Shown piece after piece: positions 5,711 through 42,465 of a stretch of 42,465 nt of DNA. The position numbers and the translations under genes were made by a program. Source of the DNA: a bacterium (GTDB taxonomy: Bacteria; Margulisbacteria; Marinamargulisbacteria; CANKTL01); NCBI GenBank assembly GCA_947486405.1, contig CANKTL010000003.1:1-42465 (forward strand). The letters run 5' to 3'. The notes beneath the pieces were generated by a model. The model was not told the origin of the DNA, did not search any database, and saw nothing but the letters and a program-made list of their open reading frames with translations. Every line of letters begins with the position of its first letter. The stretch's first letter is position 1.

Positions 5711-7645
5711 ATGAAAAAAATTGTGAGTGCATCAAAAATGCCGTTTGAATTCTCGTCTAAACAATTGAAGTCGATACAGGCCTTGGCCTCTCTATTTCGG
5801 GGAATTGAAGCCGATCAGTTGAAGATTTTTACAACCCATGTGAGTGGAGATTCCGAATTTAGAGGAGGATTTGAAAAGCTATGGGCGTATGTAACGGCAT
5901 TTTCGGCTCAAGTAGTGGCTACCCAAATGTTGGCGTTTTCAAGGGTGATGAATGAAGCCAGAGACCGCGGCCAAACACCTTGGGCAGTGAAAAATGCCGC
6001 TGATGGCCTGGCATGTACGGTTGTAGAATCCATTTTTAACGAGTTGGCTCGCCAAATTCCGGGATTTCAGGCCCGCGTTATTGCCAGTGAAGGGTTGAAA
6101 GACGGCGCTCCGGGTATTCGAGTGGGTGCTGTGTATACCAAAAATGGCAAATCTGTTGATTTGCCTGAATTTGTAATCAGCGTGGATCCCATTGACGGCA
6201 CAAGTCCCTTTGTTGCTGGCCGGGGTGGGGCGACATCTGGGTTTTCGGTTCAATTGTCCTTTCCAGGTCAGGTGCGGGTTCAGTTACCCGATCCCTTATC
6301 TGTGTTTGGCATTGTTACCGGTCCCCATGTTCCCAATTTGTCCGAAATGGGGCTTCCGAACTTGGATCCAAGGCCCTCAAAAATGGCTGAAAACGTGCGG
6401 AATATTGCACTTGCGACCCTTCGGCGTGACACCCCCGGGGTAGAGTTTGCGAAAAATGATATTGATGCCAAACTTACGAAAAGCAGATTTGCAATGATGA
6501 ACCGGCCATATCAAAATCGCCAAATTGTAGCCGAACTCAATCGAGCTGGCTGTCAGCTGACGGCAGCCTTTGACAAAGATGGAAAACCGGATCCCAAAGC
6601 TGTGTATTTGGATGGGCCATTTGTCGGTCAAACTATTTGGTTGAACGATAAATCCAACTGGGAGACCCGCGACGGACGGTTGGTAATGGTGGATGATGGG
6701 AATTGGACCTTACACCTCAACCCCGATTATTTGGCGGTACTGGGGAACGGCGGTTTACCGGAATACGCGGCAATGGTGGCGTCTGCCAGCAACTACACCG
6801 CGGTTCTTTTAGATAAAGATAATCGTCAAATCGAACTTGTTGAAGCGACTGCAACCTTTGCACTATTGCCGAAATCCAGACAAGATCCAGAAGATCTGAA
6901 GGCGTGTTTTGGTGCGAAAAGCATTCAAGCATTCAGAGAAGCCAATCCTGGGATGACTGAAGCGGAATCTCTCGCCAATTTAGGTAAAATTTGGGATGTT
7001 GCGGAGATGGGTAGTCAGGAGGGCCTCTTTGTTGCGACGGCGCTCTCGACATTGGCACGTGAAAAAGCGGGCGAAGTTTATCCTCAAGTACACCCTGAAT
7101 TAAGGGGCGCCCGATTGGAAGACGGTGTTATTAAAACATCGGCGATTGTAGCTTCTCCTCAGACCGTTAAGGTTTTGTCTGCCGAAGTGCCGATTACGTT
7201 GCCGGTAATGCTTCGTCAATTTGCGACAATGGAAATTGGGATTGAAAAATTAGATCTTGCTAAGCAAATTCTAGAAATTGCTTACAAATATGGGTGTTTT
7301 GAACAGGCACGAGAAGTAGTTGACGTGGTTATCTCTCAACTCAGAAATGCCAAATTGGATTTATTCCAAAGTTTAGACGCGGAAGAGACACAAGATCCTG
7401 AGCGCCAAGAATTGGGCAGCCACTATGTCAGCCTGATGCAGTCTTATAACTTGTCCCGCAGATTCATCGCTATTTTAAGGGATGCTGCAGCGGTTAAAAA
7501 AGAGGATGTTGCGACCATGAAAGCCCTGATTGCAAGGTGCGATAGCTTTTTGGGCCAATACCATGTCGCCAAGCATGAAATTGGCGGCCAGGTGAGCGAA
7601 ATTCGGATGGCGTTGCAGGACCAAGTGGCCGTCCTTTCGAAATAA
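5711..7645 (+). CDS. Long inositol-monophosphatase/FBPase-superfamily-like protein
   Basis: VISVDPIDGTSPFVAGRGGATSGFSVQLSF matches the DPxDGT metal-binding motif of the IMPase superfamily; ASEG upstream. AGAAGGA SD favours ATG 5711. Confidence 0.65.
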   Translation: MKKIVSASKMPFEFSSKQLKSIQALASLFRGIEADQLKIFTTHVSGDSEFRGGFEKLWAYVTAFSAQVVATQMLAFSRVMNEARDRGQTPWAVKNAADGLACTVVESIFNELARQIPGFQARVIASEGLKDGAPGIRVGAVYTKNGKSVDLPEFVISVDPIDGTSPFVAGRGGATSGFSVQLSFPGQVRVQLPDPLSVFGIVTGPHVPNLSEMGLPNLDPRPSKMAENVRNIALATLRRDTPGVEFAKNDIDAKLTKSRFAMMNRPYQNRQIVAELNRAGCQLTAAFDKDGKPDPKAVYLDGPFVGQTIWLNDKSNWETRDGRLVMVDDGNWTLHLNPDYLAVLGNGGLPEYAAMVASASNYTAVLLDKDNRQIELVEATATFALLPKSRQDPEDLKACFGAKSIQAFREANPGMTEAESLANLGKIWDVAEMGSQEGLFVATALSTLAREKAGEVYPQVHPELRGARLEDGVIKTSAIVASPQTVKVLSAEVPITLPVMLRQFATMEIGIEKLDLAKQILEIAYKYGCFEQAREVVDVVISQLRNAKLDLFQSLDAEETQDPERQELGSHYVSLMQSYNLSRRFIAILRDAAAVKKEDVATMKALIARCDSFLGQYHVAKHEIGGQVSEIRMALQDQVAVLSK

Positions 7646-9648: not shown

Positions 9649-11119
9649 ACAAGGCCGCGTCATTTTGGTGGGGGCTGGTCCCGGTGATCCTGAGCTTTTA
9701 ACGCTTAAGGGCCGCCGATGGTTAGGTGAAGCTGACGTGGTTTTATACGATTTTTTGATTCACCCGAATTTATTGGCCCTTTGTAGACCCGACGCTGAAC
9801 TCATTTGCGTGGGTAAGCGAAAAGGCCTTCATGTGAATCATCAGACCTCAATTAATGCGCAAATTGTGACCCACGCCGTCGCCGGAAAAACGGTAGTCCG
9901 CCTCAAAGGGGGCGATCCCTTTGTCTTTGGACGGGGTGGCGAAGAACTGCTGGCAGCCAAATCAGCGGGCATTCCGGTTGAAGTGGTGCCGGGCGTAAGT
10001 TCAGGGTGGGCCGTGCCAGCCTATGCGGGCATTCCCCTCACATTTCGCGAAGTGTCCCGCTCCGTGGCGATGGTTTCGGGGAGTTTGTCCACCGGGGCGG
10101 CACCCGAAGCGCACCAGTTGCCGATTGCAGACACGGTTGTGGTGTTTATGGCCGTGAGCCACCTGGACGATATTGTGGCGGCCTACGTTAAAAATGGCCA
10201 TTTTACGACGCAAACGCCGGTGGCCGTTATTTATCGCGGTACTTTGGCTGCCCAATCGACTTTGATTTCCACCTTGGGTAACGTGGCCGCCGATGTGCGT
10301 CAGGCCGAACTAAGCTCCCCCTCCTTGCTGGTTATTGGCGAGGTTGTGGCCCTGGCACCTCAGCTTAATTGGATTTCAGATCTGCCGCTTTTTGGCCACA
10401 GGGTGGTGGTACTGCGTGCGGCGCACCAGTCAGCTGAACTCACCGAAAAATTATCCCATTTTGGGGCGGAAGTGGTTCAGCTGCCGGTATTAAAATTCGA
10501 GAAAAAACCCGAATTATTGAACTTAATTTCACCCCAATACCTCTCTGATTTTTCAATGATTATATTTACGTCTCCCAACGGGGTACGCCACTTTATGGAC
10601 CATATCTTAAGTCGGGGAATGGATGCGCGTGGATTGATCGGCAAGCAAATTGTGGCGATCGGACCCAAAACGGCGCAGACTTTACGGTCGTATGGCATTT
10701 CAGCCGATTTTCAGCCTGAGCATTACCATTCTGAGGGCATTGCAGAGATGTTACCTGTGGAACTGTCTGATCAGCGTATTTTAATGCCGGTTGCGGCCGG
10801 AGCCGATGGCCAATTGAGCTCGAATTTAGAGAAGAGGGGTGCCCAAGTGACGGTACTTAAAACCTACGAAACCGTTATGCCTGATCACCTGTCCTTTACC
10901 CTCATGCCTCACGACTGGATTGTTTTCACCAGTCCATCCACCGCCACGCACTTCTTCCAATCAGTTTGGGATGGTCAAACGCCCATTCGCTGTGTCAGTA
11001 TCGGGAAGAAGACCTCTGCGAAAATTCATGATCATTGGTCAGAGTCTATATTTGAAGCGGAATTTGCGGGTGACGACGGGGTCGTTGCCGCAATTATTTC
11101 GCAAGCGGGAGGTCATTAA
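9635..11119 (+). CDS. cobA-hemD: Uroporphyrinogen-III C-methyltransferase / uroporphyrinogen-III synthase fusion
   Basis: N-terminal SUMT: GRVILVGAGPGDPELLTLKG, VRLKGGDPFVFGRGGEE; C-terminal HemD-like domain. Confidence 0.92.
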   Translation: MAFAKQGRVILVGAGPGDPELLTLKGRRWLGEADVVLYDFLIHPNLLALCRPDAELICVGKRKGLHVNHQTSINAQIVTHAVAGKTVVRLKGGDPFVFGRGGEELLAAKSAGIPVEVVPGVSSGWAVPAYAGIPLTFREVSRSVAMVSGSLSTGAAPEAHQLPIADTVVVFMAVSHLDDIVAAYVKNGHFTTQTPVAVIYRGTLAAQSTLISTLGNVAADVRQAELSSPSLLVIGEVVALAPQLNWISDLPLFGHRVVVLRAAHQSAELTEKLSHFGAEVVQLPVLKFEKKPELLNLISPQYLSDFSMIIFTSPNGVRHFMDHILSRGMDARGLIGKQIVAIGPKTAQTLRSYGISADFQPEHYHSEGIAEMLPVELSDQRILMPVAAGADGQLSSNLEKRGAQVTVLKTYETVMPDHLSFTLMPHDWIVFTSPSTATHFFQSVWDGQTPIRCVSIGKKTSAKIHDHWSESIFEAEFAGDDGVVAAIISQAGGH

Positions 11120-38980: not shown

Positions 38981-39976
38981 ATGATAAAATCCTCTGTCGT
39001 GCCAATTCAAACCATCCAGCAATTAATAGAGCAGTCGCCCAGCCATCGTATTTTGGTGGTAGGAGATGTGATGTTGGACGAGTATTTGTGGTGCCAAGTG
39101 TCTCGTATTTCACCTGAGGCACCTGTGCCTGTTTGCGCGGTTTCCTCAACTACACATGTATTAGGTGGTGCTGCTAACGTCGCCGCTAATATTTTGGCCT
39201 TGGGCAGCGTGCCCATTTTGGTGGGTGTTGTGGGCGATGATCAGGGTGCCGAAAAGCTATTAAAATTGGCTGAATCCAAAAAAATTAATACCTCCGGCCT
39301 ATTGACCGTGGTCAAACGACCCACCAGCGTCAAAACTCGGATTGTGGCGCATCATCAGCACGTGGTGCGTGTGGATCACGAAACCTGCGAAGAAATTGCA
39401 ATGGCAGACCAGAATCGGGTCTTTGATGCCGTCAAATCTGAAATTGGAACAGCGAAAGCGCTGGTGTTATCGGATTATTCCAAAGGTGTGCTTACTGGCG
39501 AATTAACTCAGCGGCTAATTAAGCTGGCGGTTGAAAATAAGGTGCCGGTGCTGGTCGATCCCAAAGGCGATGACCCACATAAATATAAAGGAGCCACCAC
39601 CATGACTCCCAATTTTTCGGAATTCCAAATTTTCGCTAAAACCAAGTTTTCAGACGAGGCAAAAATCGCGGCTTTCGGTCAAAAATTGATTCAAGAATTG
39701 GGCCTTCAGGCTTTGTTAGTGACCCGGTCCGAAAAGGGCATGTCGTTGCTTAGTGCCAGCGAAAAACACGACATCCCCACCCGCGCGGTGGCCGTCTATG
39801 ACATCACTGGTGCTGGCGACACCGTTTTGGCCGCTTTTGCAGTGGCCATTGCCGACGGCTTGAACTATCTCACCGCGGCCCAGTTTGCGAATTATGCAGC
39901 GGGTGTTGTTGTTGCCAAAGTAGGTACTGCCACAACGACCTTGGCTGAAATAGCCCAGGTTTTAGACCATGCCTAA
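38981..39976 (+). CDS. rfaE1: D-glycero-beta-D-manno-heptose-7-phosphate kinase (RfaE domain I, PfkB family)
   Basis: RILVVGDVMLDEYLWCQVSRISPEAPVPV, DPKGDDPHKYKGATTMTPNFSEF, DITGAGDTVLAAF. Confidence 0.92.
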   Translation: MIKSSVVPIQTIQQLIEQSPSHRILVVGDVMLDEYLWCQVSRISPEAPVPVCAVSSTTHVLGGAANVAANILALGSVPILVGVVGDDQGAEKLLKLAESKKINTSGLLTVVKRPTSVKTRIVAHHQHVVRVDHETCEEIAMADQNRVFDAVKSEIGTAKALVLSDYSKGVLTGELTQRLIKLAVENKVPVLVDPKGDDPHKYKGATTMTPNFSEFQIFAKTKFSDEAKIAAFGQKLIQELGLQALLVTRSEKGMSLLSASEKHDIPTRAVAVYDITGAGDTVLAAFAVAIADGLNYLTAAQFANYAAGVVVAKVGTATTTLAEIAQVLDHA

Positions 39977-40439
39977 CCCAGGTACAGTTGTTGCGTTTTC
40001 AGAGTTGGCGACGCTGGGAGATGAGCTCAGAAAAGCGGGCCAAAAAATCGTCTTTACGAATGGTTGCTTTGACATATTACACGCCGGGCACGTTCAAATT
40101 TTGGGACAAGCGCGTGCTTTAGGTGACCTACTGGTTGTGGCAATTAATTCCGATGCCAGCGTTCGAAAGCTAAAAGGCGAAAATCGGCCGATCCACTGTC
40201 AGGAAGACAGGGCAGATGTGCTGTTGGGACTTCGCGCGGTTGATTACGTCGTGGTTTTTGACACAGACACACCTATCGACTGTATTGCCGCACTCAAACC
40301 CGCCATTCACGTTAAAGGCGGGGACTATACCAAAGACCAGCTTCCCGAAACGAGAGTCGTGGAACAGTTTGGGGGCGAAGTTCGGATTTTGCCGCTTTTG
40401 CCAGGCCGATCGTCGAGTAGCGCGTTAAGTCGTCTTTGA
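39969..40439 (+). CDS. rfaE2: D-glycero-beta-D-manno-heptose 1-phosphate adenylyltransferase (RfaE domain II)
   Basis: VFTNGCFDILHAGHVQILGQARALGD, HVKGGDYTKDQLPE, GRSSSSALSRL. Confidence 0.92.
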   Translation: MPNPGTVVAFSELATLGDELRKAGQKIVFTNGCFDILHAGHVQILGQARALGDLLVVAINSDASVRKLKGENRPIHCQEDRADVLLGLRAVDYVVVFDTDTPIDCIAALKPAIHVKGGDYTKDQLPETRVVEQFGGEVRILPLLPGRSSSSALSRL

Positions 40440-40783: not shown

Positions 40784-40859
<76 letters not shown>

Positions 40860-40860
<1 letters not shown>

Positions 40861-40925: not shown

Positions 40926-41039
40926 ACGAGTTCTTTCGATTGTTGCGCTTGCCTTTGGCTTTGCTTTTTTGTCGGAAGAAAGATAGATTTTTAGACGCCT
41001 CTTTGACAAACCTGTTTGCACTCAAGGACAATTGATAGC

Positions 41040-41191
41040 GAGCCTTGGGGGTAACGAGTAGGTTCGATATGATTTCTACATTTGTAGATCCTAGCCTTGC
41101 GCAAATCGACCTAACAGAGGCTAAAGCTCCTCATTAATTTCTACTTTTGTAGATATAGATAGTAAATTTGGAGCCATTACCCCCAAAGCTC
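41040..41191. repeat. 15-nt inverted repeat flanking the two Cas12a-type repeat units
   Basis: gagccttgggggtaa (41040-41054) and ttacccccaaagctc (41177-41191), 14/15 complementary. Confidence 0.8.
41071..41154 (+). CRISPR. Degenerate two-unit Cas12a-type repeat pair (mini/pseudo-array) upstream of cas12a
   Basis: GATTTCTACATTTGTAGAT (41071-41089) and TAATTTCTACTTTTGTAGAT (41135-41154). Both keep the TCTAC/GTAGA crRNA stem typical of Cas12a. A 36-nt frame on unit 2 (41119-41154) leaves a 29-nt spacer-like segment, 41090-41118. Confidence 0.75.
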
Positions 41192-41251
41192 AGTTAGTAA
41201 GCTCCGTTTATATTTGCCAATATAACTATCCTTTAAAACAAAGCCTACATT

Positions 41252-41278
41252 TTGAACAATTAAATTTTAATAGATAAT
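41252..41278 (+). promoter_or_regulatory. Candidate cas12a promoter (TTGAAC-N15-GATAAT)
   Basis: TTGAAC 41252-41257, GATAAT 41273-41278; short spacing, so weak evidence. Confidence 0.3.
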
Positions 41279-41391
41279 TTTTTGGATGATAGTGAATAAA
41301 CTATTTACAACAAGCGGCAAGGGTGCTACTTTTCCGTCAGTCACCCGCCCTCCACGAACACGGCACAGATTTAATCTAAAAGGAGAAAAAT

Positions 41392-42465
41392 ATGAAAAAA
41401 CCCGAAAAGATACACGAATCCAAAACCAACCTTTATTCGGTTAGTAAAACGCTGCGCTTCAAACTAAAGCCTATCGGGGAAACCGAAATTACCTTTGATT
41501 CTAGCAAAATTCGCGACGAGGATGAAAAGCGAAACGTGGCGTACCAGGAAGTCAAAAAAATGATGGATGTGCTACATCGGAATTTCATTAACGACACACT
41601 GAATAGCATCCGTCTCAATTCTGACTTACTTGAAAAATATATCGGCTTGTTTCAGATAAAGGACAAGGACGAGAAACAAAAAAAAGACCTAACGGACACT
41701 CAATCCAAACTCCGAAAAGAAATCCATTTAAAATTCACAGAAGAGGGGCTCTATAAGCATTTGTTTGATAAAGAAGTTCTCCAACTACTCAAGGACGATA
41801 TTGAACGGATTCGCAATGACAAGCACATCAGCCTAAGCCCCAATGATGCTTTGGACTGCATTAACCAGTTTGATAAATTCACTACCTATTTTCGGGGCTT
41901 CTTTGAAAATCGAAAAAATATGTATTCTCATGACGAAATACATACCAGCGTGACCCACCGAATCGTTAACGAAAACATCCCTATTTTCTTGCAGAACCAA
42001 AATACGTTTCAAAAATTGAATTCAAAATACCCTGAAATACTTTCTAAGTTTGAAGAAAAGCAATTCAAACAAATCCTCGACAAATTCAAAATGGATACCT
42101 ACCCTCCTTTAGCGTCTATTTTTGAAAATGATTCTATCAACCGCATCCTAGATCAAAATGGTATCGATTTTTACAATGCCATTCTGGGTGCTTACAAAGA
42201 GGATAACAAGATTAAATCCATCATCGGATTAAACCAATTAATCAACCAAGAATGCCACCAAACTGGGGACAAAACTATCGGTAAATTATCTAAATTAAAA
42301 AAACAGATTCTTTCAGATATCGGATCCATATCCACCCGTCCAGAACCCTTTGTTACTGACAGTGATATGTATGTAGCGGTCGCCAAATTCTACGAAATCA
42401 GTCGCGATTCATTTTCAAATTTAGAACGGGTTATAAGCTCATTAGCGGAAGGGCAGCTCCCAACA
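41392..42465 (+). CDS. cas12a: CRISPR-associated endonuclease Cas12a (Cpf1), N-terminal 358 aa, 3' truncated by window end
   Basis: Manual translation has no stop: MKKPEKIHESKTNLYSVSKTLRFKLKPIGETEITF...YQEVKKMMDVLHRNFINDTLNSIRL...FTTYFRGFFENRKNMYS...NGIDFYNAILGAY...IIGLNQLINQ; matches Cas12a N-terminal/REC motifs. SD AGGAG at 41381. Confidence 0.95.
   Translation, partial: MKKPEKIHESKTNLYSVSKTLRFKLKPIGETEITFDSSKIRDEDEKRNVAYQEVKKMMDVLHRNFINDTLNSIRLNSDLLEKYIGLFQIKDKDEKQKKDLTDTQSKLRKEIHLKFTEEGLYKHLFDKEVLQLLKDDIERIRNDKHISLSPNDALDCINQFDKFTTYFRGFFENRKNMYSHDEIHTSVTHRIVNENIPIFLQNQNTFQKLNSKYPEILSKFEEKQFKQILDKFKMDTYPPLASIFENDSINRILDQNGIDFYNAILGAYKEDNKIKSIIGLNQLINQECHQTGDKTIGKLSKLKKQILSDIGSISTRPEPFVTDSDMYVAVAKFYEISRDSFSNLERVISSLAEGQLPT

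Follow-up and report, generated by a model that had tools for sequence, protein, structure and literature searches.

Genes at the cas12a locus

The stretch of DNA analyzed here (hereafter, the window) comprises 42,465 nucleotides of a Margulisbacteria contig and terminates within a gene for Cas12a, which is truncated at 358 codons by the end of the contig at position 42,465. The assembly consists of 983,649 bases in 72 contigs and is about 67% complete, so the main CRISPR array may simply be absent from it. The genes and signals that flank the region of interest are as follows, with the two signals nearest cas12a assigned by eye.

40784-40860, plus strand: tRNA-Arg (ACG), the upstream neighbor (Rfam RF00005 match at 40784-40857)
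41252-41278, plus strand: candidate cas12a promoter, weak (TTGAAC at 41252-41257, 15-nt spacer, GATAAT at 41273-41278)
41380-41385, plus strand: ribosome-binding site of cas12a (AAGGAG)
41392-42465, plus strand: cas12a, N-terminal 358 codons (REC1, E = 1.7e-54; Cas12a chains in the PDB, best E = 3.6e-58)

Rfam identified no known RNA family besides tRNA. Directly before the tRNA-Arg and cas12a locus, at 38981-40439, the two halves of HldE (heptose kinase/adenylyltransferase) are encoded by separate genes adjoining lepA.

A structured element with two Cas12a handles

Between the tRNA gene and cas12a lies an element with two Cas12a-type handles, each followed by a guide-like sequence, within a long inverted repeat. 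Its parts, all read on the plus strand, are listed below.

41003-41032, plus strand: sigma70-like promoter of the small RNA (TTGACA, 18-nt spacer, GACAAT; 10/12), with a predicted start at about 41039-41040
41040-41191, plus strand: proposed CreR-like small RNA, 152 nt, multibranch fold, single copy
41040-41054, plus strand: 5' arm of the closing stem, inverted repeat with 41177-41191
41072-41089, plus strand: Cas12a handle 1, ATTTCTACATTTGTAGAT
41090-41113, plus strand: guide 1, for which the assembly contains no PAM-flanked target
41137-41154, plus strand: Cas12a handle 2, ATTTCTACTTTTGTAGAT
41155-41177, plus strand: guide 2, with positions 1-15 mostly unpaired in the predicted fold
41177-41191, plus strand: 3' arm of the closing stem, inverted repeat with 41040-41054

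The two handles, which are the only such sequences in the assembly, lie 250-320 bp upstream of cas12a, and handle 2 together with the A at 41136 shows 0 substitutions relative to the Cas12a handle consensus. Both handles keep a perfect stem; in contrast, the 5' repeat halves are identical at only 5/17 positions, leaving the 18-nt handle as the sole part in common. The 65-nt distance from one handle to the next resembles that in a normal Cas12a repeat-spacer unit. Taken together, this spacing and the divergence of the 5' halves suggest that the element derives from an array and has been under selection for its handles only.

The predicted fold of the RNA at 41036-41195 has a free energy of -49.1 kcal/mol and a z-score of -3.95, a value that depends on register (-2.5 to -4.0). 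The closing stem comprises 14 pairs with one mismatch, and it was equaled in 0/1000 shuffles of 45-nt flanks and 1/1000 shuffles of 100-nt flanks. Based on this fold, both handle stems are formed and displayed, and the two guides differ in accessibility. In guide 1, positions 3-9 are masked by hairpin pairing between 41092-41098 and 41117-41123, with most unpaired probabilities under 0.25, whereas the seed of guide 2 is mostly open (unpaired probability 0.5-0.8) and sequestration begins at position 16, where GGAGC at 41170-41174 is predicted to pair with GCUCC at 41126-41130. The sigma70-like match stops 7-8 nt short of the first base of the closing stem. It is aptly placed as a putative promoter but suggestive only, as consensus matches of this kind are common by chance (about 1.3 per shuffle). 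The closing stem, this promoter and the folded-away seed of guide 1 were all absent from the first-pass annotation of the locus.

On the minus strand, the interval 41041-41200 gave a z-score of -5.4, the strongest among 1,058 intervals scanned. The strength of this fold is explained by the symmetry of the stem, and it probably mirrors the inverted repeat; an antisense RNA may be an alternative reading. We do not prefer a minus-strand RNA, as it lacks the order AATTTCTAC...GTAGAT needed by Cas12a and has no clear promoter facing it. We also rejected a mobile element as the source of the inverted repeat, given that the assembly holds no second copy and no target-site duplication is visible.

A seed match between guide 2 and the cas12a promoter

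Guide 2 (41155 onward, ATAGATAGTAAATTT) matches over 7 seed bases a PAM-flanked site upstream of cas12a, where the target-side sequence at 41270-41285 is ATAGATAATTTTTTGG.

41266-41276, plus strand: target (PAM TTTA at 41266-41269, seed ATAGATA at 41270-41276), unique in the genome

The target overlaps the GATAAT box of the candidate cas12a promoter; a promoter scan called nothing there, and the match to the promoter consensus is not strong. The first-pass annotation had described a guide starting at 41155, a TTTA at 41266-41269 followed by matching sequence from 41270 onward, and a GATAAT at 41273-41278, and the sequence reads as described at each of these positions.

Several comparisons indicate that the match exceeds chance. 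The window contains 1,790 TTTV sites, counting both strands, and guide 2 has its longest seed match at 41266 (7 nt, with 14/24 identities overall). A seed match of at least 7 nt occurred with p = 0.0015 in shuffled 200-bp promoters and with p = 0.0062 when shuffled guides were compared with the native promoter, and when native 24-mers from AT-rich parts of the window served as guides, 5/2860 reached it. Across the 983,649 bases of the assembly, TTTVATAGATA occurs once, at the cas12a promoter, and the reversed control pattern occurs twice. The concern raised at first reading, that the match might do no better than shuffled AT-rich controls, is thus answered by a match that beats them and exists in a single copy.

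A second site (TTTG at 41281-41284) matches positions 4-9 and 11-13 of guide 2 and differs at positions 1-3, as had been claimed; with the start of the seed unmatched over three bases, this site probably plays no part. Guide 1 was rejected as a second self-guide, since no TTTV site followed by a 7-nt match to it exists anywhere in the assembly, and its best match in the window is 4 nt.

Isolated handles upstream of other cas12a genes

We compared the locus with about 42 other Cas12a loci, a few of which are cut at contig ends or engineered. Nine came from a genome collection, two from viral contigs and the rest from family searches (Lachnospiraceae-like, Bacteroidaceae-like and genomes of the window's own phylum). 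Where the available sequence extends far enough, the array is about 5.7-8 kb downstream of the cas12a gene in most loci. Two of the roughly 42 loci, designated L011 and L040, carry an isolated handle immediately upstream of cas12a. These two loci are unrelated to the window; the sequences differ and the architecture is the same.

In L011, the guide TGAGTAAATAAAATT has a 15-nt match, flanked by a TTTA PAM, that abuts the TTGACA (-35) of the promoter of its own cas12a. This locus resembles the window in its isolated handle, its TTTA PAM and a guide match at the cas12a promoter; unlike the window, it has one handle, a match on the opposite strand and an ordinary terminator hairpin. In L040, the guide TAAAGTTAT has a 9-nt match, again with a TTTA PAM, directly before the start codon of its own cas12a. 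The likeness to the window again includes the isolated handle, PAM and position; the differences are a single handle with a larger loop, a match on the opposite strand and an ordinary terminator hairpin.

For each handle in 14 loci, the guide was tested against the promoter of its own cas12a. The isolated upstream guides matched over 7 nt (guide 2 of the window), 9 nt (L040) and 15 nt (L011), and guide 1 of the window over 2 nt. By comparison, 185 guides classed as array guides reached a maximum of 6 nt, attained by one of them. Some 22 further readable loci showed no isolated handle, and two loci in which whole arrays lie upstream of cas12a (L063 and L085) had own-promoter matches of at most 4 nt. 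The architecture therefore has support apart from the statistics of the window itself.

Taken on its own, the L011 segment at 9778-9874 (JAMPFJ010000001.1) would be a textbook CreR by its layout, with promoter-like sequence, a handle, the 15-nt guide and a terminator. The record is titled as a Bacteroidales metagenome-assembled genome; the title may be wrong, as the record was drawn by a family search of a Lachnospiraceae genome (G080). The L040 segment at 6018-6126 (G515:C124) is a candidate type V-A CreR beside a divergent Cas12a, and its handle loop is enlarged. Elsewhere in the comparison set, L010 (NZ_JAKGGD010000022.1, Paracoccus salsus; positions 95-260), L022 and L030 carry GGGGS linkers in frame before their Cas12a genes, and these are almost certainly contamination of public assemblies by engineered Cas12a vectors.

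A candidate autorepressor of cas12a

We propose that the element is an autorepressor of the CreR type belonging to a V-A system, a reading to which we give a probability of roughly 0.7. The handles, the PAM, the unique seed match, the predicted fold and the recurrence of the layout in other loci all support it at the level of sequence. Since the only PAM-flanked seven-base match in the assembly falls in the cas12a promoter, the element probably lets Cas12a limit its own production.

Cas12a binds handles and processes its own guides. From transcription and processing of the RNA to Cas12a binding without cutting, repression and relief, the events that we infer would run as follows. A promoter of its own would drive transcription of the small RNA at 41040-41191, to which Cas12a, encoded 200 bp downstream, would bind, probably cutting 5' of each handle. 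The short guide of handle 2, with its seed exposed, would then steer Cas12a to the promoter of cas12a, at TTTA-ATAGATA. Because the pairing is partial, Cas12a would sit there with the DNA uncut and block RNA polymerase, thereby restraining its own production until it is drawn off by ordinary crRNAs or by anti-CRISPR proteins.

The length of the match bears on how such repression might work. In single-molecule experiments, AsCas12a required 17 matched bases for stable binding (PMC6050341), so a 7-base match may give brief occupancy only. Brief occupancy could suffice at a weak promoter or with abundant Cas12a and guide. Fifteen-base guides permit Cas12a to bind without cutting, and in human cells guides of this length repressed weakly or not at all (PMC11919711).

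The reading of the element as a CreR-like self-guide, first made in the initial annotation, gains support from the seed match beyond chance, from the same layout in L011 and L040, and from published type V-A examples. The occurrence of CreR in type V-A systems, stated there as known, agrees with reviews (PMC13131331, PMC12737573); passages in these and a third review (PMC12948488) attribute its documentation to Liu et al. 2023 (Cell Host Microbe). Like the element, the type V-A CreR is a crRNA-like RNA that lies outside the array beside a cas gene, with a guide that partly matches a PAM-flanked site in a cas promoter. As far as the review descriptions go, the element differs in having two handles, an enclosing stem and a masked first guide, and its match is shorter (7 nt, compared with 9 nt in L040 and 15 nt in L011). 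The element is thus a variant of a published type rather than a new kind; known examples do not obviously include a form in which a stem encloses two handles and one guide is masked.

The closing stem might add a further layer to autorepression. It may cage the RNA such that the RNase activity of Cas12a, by cutting before the handles, frees the guide, and handle 1, with its masked seed, would serve as a second binding site. We regard this elaboration as tentative and probably incorrect; if it holds, the element would read out free Cas12a through processing by Cas12a itself.

Few natural examples of CreR control of Cas12a are open to inspection, and the locus offers a small test system that combines a minimal 7-base match with a two-handle, stem-closed RNA. 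The series of 7, 9 and 15 nt in the window, L040 and L011 bears on the relation between pairing length and repression without cutting, which also touches applications that employ active Cas12a for repression.

Alternative explanations

The strongest competitor to autorepression is a relic of a CRISPR mini-array, in which decay has left only the 3' handles of the two repeats, the spacers no longer serve a purpose and the seven-base match is coincidental. The array-like distance between the handles, the lack of a target for guide 1 in the assembly, and a match of only 7 nt in an AT-rich, GATA-rich stretch are all consistent with decay. However, the match beats every control (p = 0.0015-0.006) and is unique in the genome, perfect handle stems have been kept next to 5' halves at 5/17 identity, a closing stem is unexpected in a relic, and the pattern is repeated at two other loci (L011 and L040). 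We consider a relic unlikely.

Less probable still is a structured RNA that binds Cas12a, such as a sponge, with a job independent of the promoter match and with the masked handle of guide 1 as its main feature. The strong closing stem, the display of both handles in the predicted fold and the masked seed of guide 1 would suit such an RNA. However, a sponge explains neither why guide 2 has a PAM-flanked match, unique in the genome, at the cas12a promoter nor why the scaffold is missing from L011 and L040.

The layout is also shared by CreTA modules (PMC12948488), in which CreA, like the element, is a crRNA-like RNA that turns a Cas effector into a repressor by pairing incompletely with the target. 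An antitoxin RNA of this kind would guide Cas12a to a promoter driving a small toxin gene located between the element and cas12a, and a frame of 52 codons does start within the target, at 41286. However, this frame lacks a ribosome-binding site and extends over the start of cas12a in a different reading frame, and no convincing toxin gene was seen at the locus, whereas CreA represses one. In addition, the spacing fits the cas12a promoter equally well, and reviews describe CreTA as acting through the type I Cascade complex (PMC12737573, PMC12948488). These points make an antitoxin role very improbable.

A live two-repeat defense array with spacers against invaders can be dismissed as barely credible: its handle sequence and 65-nt spacing are those of a type V-A array, but its repeats have the handle alone in common, with unconserved 5' halves and no further repeats in the assembly, it lies upstream of cas12a rather than about 5.7-8 kb downstream as in most loci seen, and it lacks invader matches. 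With respect to the latter, the first 18 bases of guide 1 had no match among IMG/VR contigs, nor did the handle plus the start of the guide, and the region had no match in phage and plasmid collections, which do not cover all phages. A phage or plasmid origin of the element was rejected on the basis of these same collections.

Occurrence in related genomes

A search with the element against 76 genomes of the same phylum identified no homologue; the sole match was a 25-nt handle stretch in one genome (G026), where it has no adjoining cas12a and where no Cas12a N-terminus was found. This genome belongs to the class of the window, and the match falls in an orphan pair of Cas12a-type handles (L061, G026:C11, 5176-5260) that are about 62 nt apart, the second of them degenerate. 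The pair sits between two genes whose translations, judged by eye, resemble an RNA methyltransferase and a Fic protein. The guide at this locus also starts with ATAG; taken together with these four bases, the handle shares 96% identity with handle 2 of the window.
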